DNA of 26,019 nucleotides from a virus: positions 1 through 26,019 of IMG/VR virus record IMGVR_UViG_3300034190_002207; one strand, 5' to 3'. Both the position numbers and the translations under genes were made by a program. Of this stretch, positions 3,894-26,019 are shown piece after piece. Each line of letters begins with the position of its first letter. Position 1 is the stretch's first letter. The notes beneath the pieces were generated by a model that made no database searches, was not told the DNA's origin, and saw only the letters and a program-made list of their open reading frames with translations.

Positions 3894-4308
3894 CATAGAC
3901 AAGTATCAAGGACATACAGAAGGCAAATGGGAATATGTTGATGCTACCATCCATGCCACCGCTAGAGGTGGTAATGAAGTCATAGCAGAATATCCTTATT
4001 GGAATTACAACAAAGACCGACTGATAACCAAAGAGGAAGAGGCTAACCTGCTACTCATGACAGACGCACCAAAACTTCTAGCGGAAGTTAAGCGGATGTA
4101 TGAATTCCGTGATAGGGTGCTTGCTGCCTTTGTTAAGATGTCTAGAAACAGTAGAAGCCTTACCGAACTACTCAATTGGTTGGGCTACTGCGATTACTAC
4201 TCGTATGAAGATTATCTGATGGGTTTGCACCCTCATTCACTTGGCCTCTATGAGTTGAAGGATGAGTGGATGGAGAAGGCACAACAATACTTGGAGAGTG
4301 AAGAATAA
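3886..4308 (+). CDS. Phage accessory protein with DAPxLLAEVxR motif, 140 aa
   Basis: ATG 3886 is preceded by GGAGGCGAGGAAGA and opens MIDIDKYQGHTEGKW. The in-frame ATG at 3850 has no such site. The N-terminal domain ends ANLLLMTDAPKLLAEVKRM, a motif widespread in phage proteins of the Ead/Ea22-like type, which have no settled function. The remaining 70 residues are specific to this copy. It is followed by a paralogue (4308-4610) with the same IDKYxGHT opening and the DAPxxLxEVxR motif. Its last codons (SEE) supply the next ribosome binding site. Confidence 0.7.
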   Translation: MIDIDKYQGHTEGKWEYVDATIHATARGGNEVIAEYPYWNYNKDRLITKEEEANLLLMTDAPKLLAEVKRMYEFRDRVLAAFVKMSRNSRSLTELLNWLGYCDYYSYEDYLMGLHPHSLGLYELKDEWMEKAQQYLESEE

Positions 4309-9968: not shown

Positions 9969-10196
9969 ATGACTGAAAATAATGATAAACAAGAAATAAA
10001 TGTAGAACAAGAGAATATAATGTTGAAAGCGGAACTTGATAGGGTGCGTAACCTTGCTGGTAATAGACTTCTAATCATGAGAAGATTAGAGCAATTTGCC
10101 AACGATGTAAACACACTCATGAATGCTCTTAGAGCAGACTTTGCAGAGGTTCAAGCACCCGTTGATGAATCCGAGCAAGGTGAATCAAATGAGTAA
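9969..10196 (+). CDS. Coiled-coil protein, 75 aa
   Basis: GAGGTGAAATAA precedes the ATG. The protein is a single predicted helix: acidic start, then ENIMLKAELDRVRNLAGNRLL with heptad hydrophobics and RLEQFANDVNTLMNALRADF, ending in an acidic tail. Oligomerisation or bridging of replication proteins is plausible but unsupported. It overlaps the next gene by eight bases. Confidence 0.7.
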   Translation: MTENNDKQEINVEQENIMLKAELDRVRNLAGNRLLIMRRLEQFANDVNTLMNALRADFAEVQAPVDESEQGESNE

Positions 10197-10893
10197 TTGG
10201 ACAGACCCTAGAGTTGTTGATTGGGCAAAAGAACATTTTGCACATTCCCCTTTAGGTGGTGTGTGGAGTCCTGACGGAACAGGATTAATTTTCTTGAAAA
10301 CAGATACTAAAGAGTGGAGTTTACAGAAAGCAATACAACATCCTGCTTGCATTGAAACATTACATGGAATACGAACTGTTATGTTTGATTTAGGATATTC
10401 TCTTGATGAAAAGAATGCAGAATGGAAAGAGCCGCCAGCGACTTTAGAAGAAGCACAACGTATGGAAGTTGAAGAAAAGAAACAGATTGCTGAGAATTGG
10501 GCTGATAAAGATGGTACAAAATTGATTGATATGAATCCCTACAATACATTCCCTGAATTTATAAAAATGGAAGATGTTTTGTTAGAAGGTGGAGATACAC
10601 AAGAGATAGAGATATGGGCTTACAGGTTACTGAATCCAAACACTGGTGAACATGTAGAGATTGACCCTGATGATTATCATTTACTTACTGATGACAAAGC
10701 GTTCATGAGATACATGAATAGGGAAGGCGATATAATTCAAGCACTTACACGTAGGGAAATGATGGAAATGGCTGATGCAGGTGAACAAGGTTTGCTAATA
10801 GGTAGTGTTGACCCCGTTACTAAGGAGAAGATTCCTCTTTGGTTATACGGTACTTATTGTAAAGTCATAGACCCAAACGAGGAGGAAGAGTAA
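10189..10893 (+). CDS. Hypothetical acidic protein, 234 aa
   Basis: ATG 10189 (MSNWTDPRVVDW) is behind AAGGTGAATC and overlaps the previous gene. The ORF can extend to 10123, but only through the body of its neighbour. The protein has three parts: WAKEHFAHSPLGGVWSP, a charged helix (EAQRMEVEEKKQIAE), and a C-terminal alpha/beta region (EIWAYRLLNPNTGEHVEI). No motif is recognised. It ends NEEEE, whose codons form the GAGGAGGAAG ribosome site of the next gene. Its place in the replisome operon suggests a role in DNA replication. Confidence 0.8.
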   Translation: MSNWTDPRVVDWAKEHFAHSPLGGVWSPDGTGLIFLKTDTKEWSLQKAIQHPACIETLHGIRTVMFDLGYSLDEKNAEWKEPPATLEEAQRMEVEEKKQIAENWADKDGTKLIDMNPYNTFPEFIKMEDVLLEGGDTQEIEIWAYRLLNPNTGEHVEIDPDDYHLLTDDKAFMRYMNREGDIIQALTRREMMEMADAGEQGLLIGSVDPVTKEKIPLWLYGTYCKVIDPNEEEE

Positions 10894-11174
10894 TGGCTGG
10901 CTTTGGAAAAACTAAGAAGGCACAAGAAGCCTTAGCGGAAACCTTAGCAGACGGAGAACTACCTGCCCATGAAAGAGCAGACCCTTTTGCTGCTTTACAG
11001 GCTGAACTAGATGCAGAACAACCTACGTTGAACACACATACCTTTGCTGGTATAATCGGTCACGAAAACACTTGTAAAACTGCTATCGTGACTGCTGCTT
11101 ACAACAAGTATTGGGAAGAATTTAATGATAAGAAATTTGTCTTAGATTTAGATGGAGTGAGAAAGAATGAATGA
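10893..11174 (+). CDS. N-terminal half of a split RecA/Sak4-like ATPase, 93 aa
   Basis: Residues 50-66 (TFAGIIGHENTCKTAIV) carry a Walker A motif: G56, then C61-K62-T63. The consensus Gly before the Lys is Cys here. The protein then stops after a beta-strand-like KKFVLDLDG, just where a RecA fold would continue. The next gene supplies the rest, including a Walker B. RecA/Sak4-like viral ATPases act in strand annealing and recombination. The split is by an eight-base overlap (ATGAATGA) with a GGAGTGAGAAAG ribosome site, not by an insertion. Activity of the altered P-loop is uncertain. Confidence 0.8.
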   Translation: MAGFGKTKKAQEALAETLADGELPAHERADPFAALQAELDAEQPTLNTHTFAGIIGHENTCKTAIVTAAYNKYWEEFNDKKFVLDLDGVRKNE

Positions 11175-11901
11175 AGAACCTAAACAACTATGGATAGTAG
11201 ATTTTGACGGTGGTGGGTTCGCTAACAAAAGTGCATTCTATCCTGAAAATACTGGTATCAAATCTTTCGAGCCTTATGTCTATATGACAGGAAATAGGAC
11301 TGCTATTGACTATGATGCAACTCATAATCGAGTGATGCAAATAATGCAATTCGCTATAAAAAATAGTGGTAATATATGGGGGGTACTCATCACTGGCGTA
11401 GACCAATTTGATGCAGTATGTGTAAATAATATGAGGATAAACGATTTAGGTTTAGCGAGCGATGCGATTAGTGCGGCAGATGTACGTGGTGCTGGAGATG
11501 GACAAAGAGTACAGAATCAGTGGGATTGGGCAATAAGAAAAACTAGATTCCAACAGTTAGTATCTCTATGTAGAGCATTAGTAAAGAGAGGAACTAAAGT
11601 GTTCATGGAAACACATTTGTCTCTAACTAATTATGCACTTGGTGCAAATGAGGCAAATGCTAGTTGGAAGCCCGCTTGGGAAAAGAGTACCAACAATTTC
11701 TTATTCCAAATCATTAGAATGGAAAGAGAAGATACGCTTGATGAAGAAGGTAATGTCCTGATACAAAGGTTCACGGCTTCATTTGAAAAGAGTAAAACGG
11801 ATGCAGGTTTACAAGGACAAAAGAGAACTGTTCTAGTGACAGAAGTGGGTAAAGCACCTATCTTCTATGGACTACCTGAATTAAACGATGGCACATTGTA
11901 G
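11167..11901 (+). CDS. C-terminal half of a split RecA/Sak4-like ATPase, 244 aa
   Basis: The protein opens with KQLWIVDFDGGG, a core beta strand of a RecA-like fold, then a Walker B-like strand NIWGVLITGVDQFD (D79) and a later strand RGTKVFMETHLSLTN resembling the strand that follows it in such ATPases. It has no Walker A of its own; that is in the previous gene. The first strand repeats the last strand of the upstream half (FVLDLDG versus WIVDFDG), as if the seam had been duplicated. The two halves probably assemble. It ends at TAG directly abutting the polymerase start. Confidence 0.85.
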   Translation: MNEEPKQLWIVDFDGGGFANKSAFYPENTGIKSFEPYVYMTGNRTAIDYDATHNRVMQIMQFAIKNSGNIWGVLITGVDQFDAVCVNNMRINDLGLASDAISAADVRGAGDGQRVQNQWDWAIRKTRFQQLVSLCRALVKRGTKVFMETHLSLTNYALGANEANASWKPAWEKSTNNFLFQIIRMEREDTLDEEGNVLIQRFTASFEKSKTDAGLQGQKRTVLVTEVGKAPIFYGLPELNDGTL

Positions 11902-16820: not shown

Positions 16821-17915
16821 ATGGGTTTCATAGAGTTTGATTATCCTAGAGAAGTATTAGACATTGATTCTAATGGTGATAAAGGATTTAGAAGATTAGT
16901 AAATAATTCTAAACAGTTGTCAAACTACTGGAAAGGTAAAAACGGAAGCGGTAACGTATACATGACAGCCTATGGTTATAGAGCAACACAAGCACCACGT
17001 CATCATAGAGTAGATTATAATACACCAATCATAAGACATTTTGTCTTAGATTTCGATTGTAAAGATTTCAGAAATAAAGGACGTGAAGTTGAATTTGCAT
17101 TTGTACAAGAACAAGTCAAAAGATTACATCAGCATTTTTTATTAAATGATTATGAACACTATATTTGGTTGTCAGGGGGTGGATTTCATATTTGGATTCC
17201 ACTGAATAAAACTTTGACACCAAGCACTGGATTAGAAGTCAGTAGAATAAAAAATGCAGGTAAAAAGTATTTAGTTAAATTACATAAAGAATTAGATTTA
17301 CCTTCTAATGACCCTACAGTTGCATTCGATACTGCTGGTATGATTAGAATACCCAATTCATACAACACGAAAAGAGGTTGTTGGAGTATACCATTGGAAC
17401 ATGATGAAATAATGAATTTATCACACGATGATTTGATAGAATTAGCACAAGAACCTAGAAGTGGTGCAATTAAACACGGTAGTGTTAAATTTGATTTGAT
17501 AATACCTGAGAAACAAAAAGTGACTTTCACGAAAACTAAAAGAAATATAGATTTACCCGATGTATCTCTTGATAAAATCTTAGTGCTACCTTGTATTGCT
17601 CAAGCAGCATTAGGTGAAGGTAATCCAACTCATAGAGCACGTTTCCATTTAGCAAATTACTTAGCGGCTAGGTTAAGATATTGGTTTCCTCCAGAATACG
17701 CAACGGAACAAGATAAACACGAACATTCTAATAAAATTGTAAATATATGTGAGGCACAAGGTTGGGTTGATTTTGATAGAAATATTACAACAACTCAAGT
17801 TAAAAGTATAGTTTTTGGCAATTATAATTATTCTAATTGTAAAACTTTAATGATGGAAGGTTTGTGTACAGGTGTTTGTAATTACTATGATGGTACTGCC
17901 GAGGATATAATATGA
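16821..17915 (+). CDS. priS: Archaeo-eukaryotic primase: PriS-like core fused to a PriL-type Fe-S domain, 364 aa
   Basis: The N-terminal part is an AEP catalytic domain: LDFDC with D77 and D79 (metal ligands), SGGGFHIW with H123, and FDTAGMIRIPNSYNTKRG with D170 and R176. Residues about 253-360 match the C-terminal Fe-S domain of the large primase subunit: LPCIAQAALGEGNPTHRARFH opens it (C258), followed by C340, C349 and C353 (SNCKTLMMEGLCTGVC). One polypeptide therefore combines what hosts split into PriS and PriL. No large-subunit gene was seen. It would make primers for the PolB replisome. AAGTGATT precedes the ATG. Confidence 0.93.
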   Translation: MGFIEFDYPREVLDIDSNGDKGFRRLVNNSKQLSNYWKGKNGSGNVYMTAYGYRATQAPRHHRVDYNTPIIRHFVLDFDCKDFRNKGREVEFAFVQEQVKRLHQHFLLNDYEHYIWLSGGGFHIWIPLNKTLTPSTGLEVSRIKNAGKKYLVKLHKELDLPSNDPTVAFDTAGMIRIPNSYNTKRGCWSIPLEHDEIMNLSHDDLIELAQEPRSGAIKHGSVKFDLIIPEKQKVTFTKTKRNIDLPDVSLDKILVLPCIAQAALGEGNPTHRARFHLANYLAARLRYWFPPEYATEQDKHEHSNKIVNICEAQGWVDFDRNITTTQVKSIVFGNYNYSNCKTLMMEGLCTGVCNYYDGTAEDII

Positions 17916-23352: not shown

Positions 23353-26019
23353 TCAATCAAACTCCACGTATATAACACCCGTAGTATCTCCCATATCAAC
23401 AGGAGTAGACCCTGCATTTGTTCTTTGTATTCTAATTTCATCTAAAGCATCAAAGGTATGGTTTACAACCACTGCCCCTCTCCATATTGTACTTGAATGA
23501 GGAGATTGTGTTAATTCCATTGTAGCATTTCCACTGACTCCTGTATTATCTTGAGTTGCACCTCTTGCTACTGCAATTTGGAAAAATTCTCCTGAAGTGC
23601 TCATATCATTATTATTATTTATTTTCCAAGTTTGTTCACTTGTACCTGTTACTGTATGATTTCTAGTGTTTAATGTTAAATATTTTACTGTTCCCGATTT
23701 AGGCATAATGAATCCCCAATGATTTTGTGATGAAGCATAATCATGTGATACTGCCTTTAGATTTACTGCACCAGTATCCATATCACTTCTGTTAAACACA
23801 AATGAAACACAACTGTTGATGTTACCTAACGAAGTTTTGATTTCACCTGCAACCTCTAATTTTGCAGAAGGTGCGGTAACACCTATTCCTACATTTCCTG
23901 TGTCCGACTTTATTGTTATTCTATTTTCTGTACCATCTTGAGTTGCCAACACTAAATCTTCAGAAGCGTAAGAAGAAATTTGGTAAGCACTACCCGATGT
24001 ATTTCCACCATCTATAACTAAAGGTTTATTGAAATAGAATTTTGCATTTTCTCCCTGTATATGATTCCAACTTGTGCTTGTAGCACCTAATCGAAGATAG
24101 CCACTAGCAGTATTTATTTCCAAAGCACCACCATGTTCTCCGAGTGAAACATAACCACTTGTAGGGGTTATATCTGATGTGTCATTTTTAATCGTCATAC
24201 CTGTTGTTATTTTTCCACCTAGAAGAGTGCTTATCTGTGGAGCACCACTTATTTCTTCAAAACGTGGGTCAAAAGCGTGTTGAATTTGTTCAGGATTATC
24301 ATCACTGTAAAACATATACACTCTATTTCTAACGTATGTAGATTGTGACCACCATTGGAAATTACCAGCACCTGCTACCCTGTTACCTGTCTCACCATCA
24401 TATACTGCACCCCTATCTGTATAATCTGTATCTCCCATTCCTTGAACATAACCTACAACTAGATACCACTTATCTACTTCCGGTAAATCGCCACTGCTAA
24501 AATAAGCGTTAGTTTCTAACTGCATTATTTTAGCATTATCAGCATGTGCTTGACTTATAGCATACTCTCCGGTTAATGGAATACCTGTCAAAACATTGTT
24601 ATCTATATCAGTATAAGATATTCTATCTACGTTATTTATCACTGCATATCTTGTCGTACTACCATTACCATCAAGTAAAGAATGACCGGAATCCAACGTA
24701 ATACTTGTTTTACCGTAATTAACACCTCTACCTGTACCTGTGGCTGTAGCATTAGCACTCATGGTGATTTGAGAAGATGAATCTATTGATTGAATAGTAG
24801 TGTTGTCGGGTATTCCATCAAATGTACCATCTGCTACATCAAACAAAGACATTCCTGTTACTAATAAATTAGTATTTATGCTAATATTTGTAAGAGTGGC
24901 ACTACCACTAGAGAAATTAGCAGTAAAAGTACCTGTGGTAGTTATTGCACCATCACATGTTCCCCTTCTGCTTACATCTTGCACACCTACGTTACTTCCA
25001 GTAGGGCCATCATGACCATAGAAACCCATATAGTAAGCACCTTCTGTAAGATGACTTCTTTTTACCCATACAGACATTCTATAACTTTTATTAATATCAA
25101 TTTTGGGATACGGTGTGGCAGTTAAGAATCCACCACTTGCACTACTATTACCACTATCTTGAAAACGCCATAGTAATCCTCTAGCATAATAAAAATCATC
25201 TGAGCCTAACGGGGTTTGACCATAGACTATACTATTTTCATCTGTTCCACCATTAATTGTAAATCCGGCAGGTGGGTTAGTTAAATCAGACATTGGCGAC
25301 CATGAATAACTGTTGAAAATATTACCATCAAGATAGCCCGCAGTTTCAGTAAATACTCTACCATAACCTGCTATATGTACTAAATCGCAAGGGTCATTAG
25401 TACCTATCCCAATCTTGCCTTCTGAATCAATACGCATTCTCTCAAGAGCGTCAGTATCATCATCTTGGTCAATAGGCGAAGTGAAGAATACTAAGTCTCC
25501 ACCTTTATCTCCTGTACCGTGGTCTTCTGCGGCATAAGCGGCAATACCCGCAGATGCTTCTGTCACTTTACTAGGGATATTGCCGTCACTCGAATCAAAA
25601 CCAATCGCCCCAAGAAGATTAGTGTCGACAGTAGAAGAATCATTTCTCGTTATCAGTATACCTTGCTTGCCATCAGCCATATTTCCGTGAACATGTAGTA
25701 GAGAAGAAGGAGTTGTAGTGCCTATTCCTACATTACCAGTAGGAAAACTTACATAATTATTACTACTATTATTTCTTATTTCCATTAATATAGTAGAATC
25801 ATCTTCACCTCTAATTCTAAGATAATCACCATCTTTTCTAATGTAATGGGATTCATCATTATCATTTGAAAACTTAATATCTACTCTTGAAGCATCATGA
25901 AGATGTAACTTATGGGTAGGACTCGTAGTGCCTATTCCAACATTACCATCACTCTTGATTTGCATTCTCGTTGTTCCAGTAGTAGTAGCATCATTGGCTC
26001 CCGTATTGAACAGAATGTC
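23353..26019 (-). CDS. Tail fibre / receptor-binding protein (5' end beyond window)
   Basis: The frame is open through the right edge, so the true start is outside. Four GNVGIGTTxP-type repeats typical of marine phage fibres are visible (near 25918-25948, 25711-25741, 25393-25421 and 23870-23904), each followed by a short LxVxG strand. The centre (YRMSVWVKRSH...DKWYLVVGYV...RVYMFYSDDN) resembles a carbohydrate-binding module found in phage fibres. It is interrupted near 24716-24950 by a Thr/Ser-rich beta module (FSSGSATLTN...LLVTGMSLFD...SQITMSANATATGTG). The last 150 residues look like a C-terminal beta domain. It probably binds host surface sugars. It lies on the strand opposite the replication genes, as expected for late genes. 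Confidence 0.92.
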   Translation of the reverse strand, partial: DILFNTGANDATTTGTTRMQIKSDGNVGIGTTSPTHKLHLHDASRVDIKFSNDNDESHYIRKDGDYLRIRGEDDSTILMEIRNNSSNNYVSFPTGNVGIGTTTPSSLLHVHGNMADGKQGILITRNDSSTVDTNLLGAIGFDSSDGNIPSKVTEASAGIAAYAAEDHGTGDKGGDLVFFTSPIDQDDDTDALERMRIDSEGKIGIGTNDPCDLVHIAGYGRVFTETAGYLDGNIFNSYSWSPMSDLTNPPAGFTINGGTDENSIVYGQTPLGSDDFYYARGLLWRFQDSGNSSASGGFLTATPYPKIDINKSYRMSVWVKRSHLTEGAYYMGFYGHDGPTGSNVGVQDVSRRGTCDGAITTTGTFTANFSSGSATLTNISINTNLLVTGMSLFDVADGTFDGIPDNTTIQSIDSSSQITMSANATATGTGRGVNYGKTSITLDSGHSLLDGNGSTTRYAVINNVDRISYTDIDNNVLTGIPLTGEYAISQAHADNAKIMQLETNAYFSSGDLPEVDKWYLVVGYVQGMGDTDYTDRGAVYDGETGNRVAGAGNFQWWSQSTYVRNRVYMFYSDDNPEQIQHAFDPRFEEISGAPQISTLLGGKITTGMTIKNDTSDITPTSGYVSLGEHGGALEINTASGYLRLGATSTSWNHIQGENAKFYFNKPLVIDGGNTSGSAYQISSYASEDLVLATQDGTENRITIKSDTGNVGIGVTAPSAKLEVAGEIKTSLGNINSCVSFVFNRSDMDTGAVNLKAVSHDYASSQNHWGFIMPKSGTVKYLTLNTRNHTVTGTSEQTWKINNNNDMSTSGEFFQIAVARGATQDNTGVSGNATMELTQSPHSSTIWRGAVVVNHTFDALDEIRIQRTNAGSTPVDMGDTTGVIYVEFD

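Follow-up and report, generated by a model that had tools for sequence, protein, structure and literature searches.

How an ATPase can carry its Walker A motif in one protein and its Walker B motif in the next is the question raised by the window studied here, which is the whole of IMG/VR virus record IMGVR_UViG_3300034190_002207 (positions 1 to 26,019; 26,019 nucleotides). A sequence-only reading had taken this arrangement for a RecA-like ATPase divided into two genes by the short duplication of one strand. The two-gene layout itself was borne out, with ORFs at 10893-11174 and 11167-11901, Walker A in the first and Walker B in the second; both peptide motifs on which the idea of a duplication was built are also there, FVLDLDG towards the 3' end of the first ORF and WIVDFDG shortly after the second one begins. 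The locus contains:

10893..11174, plus strand: gene of 93 aa for the N-terminal half of the RecA-like ATPase; includes the P-loop and its following helix (ORF; tblastn to all relatives)

11058..11081, plus strand: Walker A (P-loop) GHENTCKT, Cys replacing the usual Gly before Lys (translation)

11120..11168, plus strand: 49-nt segment that is not in fused kin (global alignment to L002)

11136..11156, plus strand: FVLDLDG within the new tail of the first protein (translation, joined-halves model, DNA comparison)

11154..11157, plus strand: Shine-Dalgarno-like GGAG, 9 nt ahead of the second gene's start (sequence; duplex energy -8.1)

11167..11174, plus strand: 8-nt start/stop overlap ATGAATGA of the two half genes (sequence)

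11167..11901, plus strand: gene for the C-terminal half, 244 aa, from the second strand onward, with Walker B and the remaining RecA core (ORF)

11191..11211, plus strand: WIVDFDG, second core strand (hhhDFDxG), a strand in the model (alignment, model)

11377..11403, plus strand: Walker B strand WGVLITGVD with its invariant Asp (alignments)

In four close IMG/VR records (L001, L002, L003 and L007), whose DNA is 89-95% identical to that of the window, both proteins are one ORF of 315-319 aa, which reads ...NKYWEDNEEPKQLWLLDFDGGG... at the seam in L001-L003 and DNETPKQL in L007. Residues 1-75 of the N-terminal half are colinear with L001-L003, and the C-terminal half is 98% identical to the corresponding portion of L001. 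L002 and L003 align with the window at 95.4% identity over 9.1 kb with 3 gap openings; because kin this close join both sequences in one ORF, a split gene is a better description than a chance pairing. The 49-nt segment codes for most of the first protein's tail and supplies the Shine-Dalgarno-like site as well as the new ATG/stop arrangement: the first ORF ends with AAG AAT GAA TGA and the second begins with ATG AAT GAA GAA CCT, the two frames overlapping by 8 nt with a +1 offset. An IMG/VR scan with the second ORF gave 20 loci and a profile scan 80. Both halves were present in 79 rows (78 loci and the window), 67 fused and 12 split, and two further split loci, L175 and L198, were added after this count. 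With 67 of the 79 rows fused and one origin of the split state rejected (see below), the claim that one ancestral protein was split in two is strongly supported; the homologues collected are in their majority single proteins and not two proteins throughout. A profile search of genome contigs gave no cellular homologue, and tblastn of the C-terminal half against 50,697 phage records gave no phage relative. A 256-aa gene lies directly upstream of the split ATPase (window 10123-10893). The L001 alignment skips window positions 10184-10885, so that this gene seems to be absent there and to be another presence/absence change adjoining the split ATPase.

Among the window genes, matches were obtained for PolB, a clamp-loader-like AAA protein, an ERCC4 nuclease, an exonuclease and a chaperonin, while the clamp, primase and MCM were named from context only. 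The clamp-loader-like gene is upstream of the split ATPase and PolB downstream. Magroviruses were reportedly first described in a paper of 2017. As criterion for the Magrovirales we used the replication genes that Poseidoniales viruses carry themselves (PolB, clamp, clamp loader, primase, MCM, nuclease), together with the chaperonin. By its gene content and the match to the descriptions in PMC10768690, the window is probably part of the genome of a tailed virus of marine archaea, most likely a magrovirus of Poseidoniales. The ICTV genome map of the Aoguangviridae (Magrovirales) bears the labels PolB-NTD/PolB-CTD (PMC10768690), which would likewise be a replication enzyme in N- and C-terminal parts, in probably related viruses; going by these map labels the protein is a different one, and PolB in the window is one 785-aa ORF. 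A PDB search with the upstream 442-aa protein, considered as an SSB, returned nothing better than E 0.93. On the minus strand, a long ORF with repeated GNVGIGTTxP motifs (23353-26019), open at the window end, looks like a tail-fibre or appendage protein.

The RecA-like fold assumed in the earlier reading is supported by modelling. The AlphaFold2 model of the fused kin L023 (pLDDT 84, pTM 0.81) had RecA as its best Foldseek match in the PDB (E 5e-10, probability 1.00); nearly all of the top 50 matches were RecA (E 5e-10 to 3e-7, TM about 0.45), and Foldseek also paired the fused protein with phage RecA-like and 'AAA domain' proteins. When the window halves were joined through the stop, TGAA being read as one residue, the same fold was obtained (pLDDT 82) in a model that is guided by the fused-kin alignment and is not an independent test. 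By model comparison, the ATPase thus appears to share the RecA core fold with RecA, UvsX, Sak4 (a remote homologue of RecA with annealing activity, PMC5928155) and the phage 'AAA domain' proteins. As in RecA and the phage RecA-core ATPases, Walker A is followed by an Asp-containing strand after the first helix and by Walker B, and the Asp of WGVLITGVD is invariant in the alignment of 53 fused members. Unlike RecA, UvsX and Sak4, the protein gave no useful match in sequence searches of Pfam-A, PHROGs and PDB, and its family has members that are split between the P-loop and Walker B. The Pfam model of Sak4/AAA_24 (PF13479) matched neither the window halves nor any of the 53 fused members. From its fold and its place in the replication gene cluster, a recombination or annealing role is likely.

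The P-loop GHENTCKT departs from the strict Walker A consensus GxxxxGK[ST]. The Cys for Gly reported by the sequence-only reading is indeed present, but it has no link to the split, as all four fused kin carry Cys; L023-L025 and L036, all of them fused kin, have the identical GHENTCKT. In 60 of the 79 rows the last P-loop Gly is kept; it is C, S, A or T in the other 19, and its site has undergone nine changes on the tree, with non-Gly residues in fused members as well. The family (P-loops of L023-L102) thus repeatedly loses a glycine that is normally near-invariant. T4 UvsX, annotated as a DNA-dependent ATPase, also lacks it: its P-loop reads GPSKSFKS, with Phe in place of Gly, and Phe65 within this P-loop is discussed in PMC10144138. 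As the UvsX case makes plain, a RecA fold can do without this Gly, and the RecA-fold assignment stands.

A new ribosome site and start codon had been noted between the halves, and both were confirmed (GGAG and ATG 11167). The duplex of this site with the anti-Shine-Dalgarno sequence reaches -8.1 kcal/mol, whereas among 718 other ATGs of the window 4.9% attain that value. A Shine-Dalgarno-like site (-7.2 to -11.7 kcal/mol) precedes each of the 11 split starts that were scored, the window included; for background ATGs the median is -2.4 kcal/mol, with 17% at -5 or better. In most split cases the start and the stop overlap (ATGA, or ATGAATGA in the window), and it is by such a co-location of stop and start that PMC3711429 recognises coupled translation. 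The coupled pairs of that study that mimic frameshift genes are alike in their co-located stop and start and in having homologues that run across the pair as one frame-shifted reading. The PMC3711429 survey covers cellular prokaryote genomes, whereas the present fissions and the apparent re-fusion are mapped onto a tree.

This tree, built by maximum likelihood without the seam columns, requires four changes of the split state, and the starred branches alone force four. The window is nested in the clade of its four fused kin; the split L037 is beside the fused L033/L034; a large split clade comprises L039, L040, L043, L045, L048, L050, L058, L060, L072 and L094; and the fused L052/L063 are nested inside that large split clade. 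When L175 and L198 were added there were still four changes, the split groups being the window, L037/L198 and an eleven-locus clade. Placing all split rows in one clade was rejected (p-AU 1.87e-44), and with it a common origin for the window seam and the seams of the large split clade; the likeness of the window insert to the tails of that clade is marginal (for L050, 22 of 300 shuffles scored equally high). The L037/L198 split is present in two separate metagenomes and the large split clade is represented in many contigs. The simplest reading of the four changes would be three fissions and one re-fusion (L052/L063), gain and loss not being separable by the tree alone. Re-fusion is supported by the linker of L052/L063, NNDGMEPKKFW, which keeps what looks like a relic Met at the place where the split relatives start (MSDKPKQFW, MSKPKQLW); a Met at that place is missing from nearly all other fused members. 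Within the large clade, L072 has a TAA at codon 7 of its C-terminal half (about 4019-4021) that the near-identical L060 does not have, which is either a sequencing error or a dead copy.

In three members of the large split clade, a gene of 107-108 aa belonging to DUF3846 (Pfam 2e-6 to 6.5e-11) sits between the halves:

L039, 3672-3995: DUF3846 gene in the gap

L040, 3684-4007: DUF3846 gene in the gap

L094, 3681-4001: DUF3846 gene in the gap

A related DUF3846 gene is directly upstream of the fused ATPase of L079 (3359-3748) and not in the near-identical L080; DUF3846 is a cassette that comes and goes in the ATPase operon. L094 and L058 are near-identical, and in L094 the DUF3846 gene is bounded by the repeat ATGAGCGAT, with one copy at the DUF3846 gene start and the other at the start of the C-terminal half. 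Because this repeat flanks DUF3846 in L094, L058 looks like the product of a deletion that joined two short repeats. L175 no longer has the DUF3846 gene, and its first protein has a tail whose last bases match the end of the L094 DUF3846 gene. L037 owes its GGAGG plus ATGA to small changes in a Gly/Glu-rich linker.

Could the two frames nevertheless be read as one protein, or the window gene be truly fused? Frames that overlap, with a conserved protein on either side, have the look of a frameshift gene. However, the shift needed would be +1 in the window and -1 in L037, L043, L050 and L058, no slippery site is common to the split loci, a whole 107-108 aa gene separates the halves in L039, L040 and L094, and every C-terminal half scored has its own Shine-Dalgarno-like site and ATG. 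The differing direction and the intervening gene led us to reject programmed ribosomal frameshifting, to which we give hardly any credence. An assembly or sequencing artefact in a truly fused gene is improbable, if less so than frameshifting. As an artefact would predict, a single record carries this exact seam and the four close kin are fused. On the other side, an error is unlikely to supply, within 49 nt, an overlapping stop and ATG together with a Shine-Dalgarno-like site, and this just at the position of the natural split in two other lineages; the flanking strand itself is two codons off that of the kin (WIV for WLL). A degenerate search of IMG/VR for FVLDLDGV, which may omit very near records, found 61 stretches, none beside this ATPase.

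The source of these 49 nt is a separate matter. As had been stated from the outset, no intein, intron or homing endonuclease gene is seen at the window seam, and DUF3846 is the only gene found there in relatives. The proposed strand duplication did not survive comparison: the codons of the two motifs share no more than 13 of 21 bases, and the match of the insert to the flanking DNA of fused kin is at the level of shuffles (p 0.57), so that a copied strand is not supported as its origin. Nor does the joined model bear out a break between two copies of one strand: in it WIVDFDG forms strand 98-103 and FVLDLDG is a low-confidence stretch without a strand. Two other origins would each be compatible with the fission. 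The seam may be the scar of a lost DUF3846-like gene whose last codons now form the first protein's tail, as apparently in L175; we consider this unlikely. DUF3846 genes occupy exactly this site in three relatives, the end of the L175 tail, GGAGGCAGAACAATG, has 14 of 15 bases in common with the 3' end of the L094 DUF3846 gene (shuffle p 0.002), and the window tail NDKKFV is similar to VDEKFI of the L039 DUF3846 protein. Yet for the window insert itself the similarity to DUF3846 3' ends is weak (p 0.05-0.5), the L175 match consists partly of a Shine-Dalgarno sequence that is constrained in its own right, and the gene is not seen in the window's own branch. Slightly less likely still is a templated insertion for which the genome's own primase-like gene served as the source. 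Within the window the insert matches best at 17022-17052, over 27 of 31 aligned columns, with a score of 22 when the best of 100 shuffles reached 21, and in the L002 and L003 genomes its best match is a 31-nt place at 84% (E 0.001-0.003). This match was found after the fact, and from a recent copy one would expect more than 84-87% identity and a gap when the genome is 95% identical to its kin. The 17022-17052 segment encodes HFVLDFD, which resembles the insert. Taken as sequence matches, the primase one appears weak and the one to DUF3846 ends weaker.

Whatever their routes, all breaks fall in one variable loop, which connects the P-loop helix to the strand after it. The L023 model places this loop at residues 77-81, between helix 62-76 and strand 82-87. 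Linkers of fused members from the P-loop helix to the second strand are 6 to 21 residues long, meaning that the break site was already a variable loop. Save for the early stop codon in the C-terminal half of L072, no break was seen elsewhere in family members. Three random breaks in about 320 codons would all fall within 20 codons about 1% of the time; at this chance level, the shared place is suggestive of a loop that tolerates breaks and is not proof of a hot spot. It is doubtful that the loop is a selected fission hot spot, two chains being favoured because the P-loop half acquires a function through its new C-terminal tail, possibly binding of the clamp (PIP). The motif [RK]QTxLx[ED]F, which resembles a PCNA-binding (PIP) box, is carried by the tail of the N-terminal half in nine large-clade loci (L039, L043, L045, L048, L050, L058, L060, L072 and L094; five distinct tails). 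The PIP reading of these tails stays a lead because PIP-like termini are rare among the other ORFs of these loci. If it is true, the P-loop half could sit on the viral sliding clamp, with Walker B coming from the other chain. The tail of the window protein, DKKFVLDLDGVRKNE, does not fit QxxLxxF and was rejected as a PIP box.

Both halves are under purifying selection in the large split clade. For the C-terminal half, dN and dS are 0.08 and 1.5 between L050 and L058, and 0.007 and 0.19 between L043 and L048; for the N-terminal half, the values are 0.15 and 1.7, and 0.014 and 0.096, respectively. With dN far below dS in both, the two halves have been kept as proteins after the split in this clade. 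The same test applied to the window mixes the time before and after its split.

A joint explanation, which we hold to be probable, would account for these results by a 49-nt fission of a single RecA-fold ATPase with coupled translation, reassembly of the chains and recurrent breaks in kin. A RecA-fold ATPase, one protein in most relatives, would have been broken in the window lineage by an insertion into the loop that leads from the P-loop helix to the second core strand; what it leaves inside the loop is a Shine-Dalgarno-like site and a stop overlapped by an ATG. Both chains are probably made by coupled translation across the overlapping stop and start, and probably reassemble into one active ATPase, a natural case of protein-fragment complementation; we infer this reassembly and the ATPase activity of the two chains. 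The data themselves show the fused relatives, the positions of the breaks, their independent origins, the purifying selection on both halves in the split clade and the Shine-Dalgarno-like sites at the new starts. In relatives, the same loop would have been opened independently at least two more times and most likely re-closed once; in one of these breaks a DUF3846 gene probably came to sit in the gap and afterwards disappeared from several lines. In the metazoan mitochondrial cox2 described in PMC5374615, an insertional fission likewise breaks a gene into two complementary genes; as described there it concerns an organelle gene, in contrast to the loop of a viral P-loop ATPase here.

Splitting one catalytic core between Walker A and Walker B is unusual, and within one virus family the same core appears to have undergone three openings at a single loop and, probably, one closure. 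Fused and split versions that are 95% alike in DNA provide natural matched pairs. These could be used to test how fission begins, whether the enzyme is kept alive by coupled translation and fragment complementation, and whether the DUF3846 gene in the gap is a cause or a passenger.
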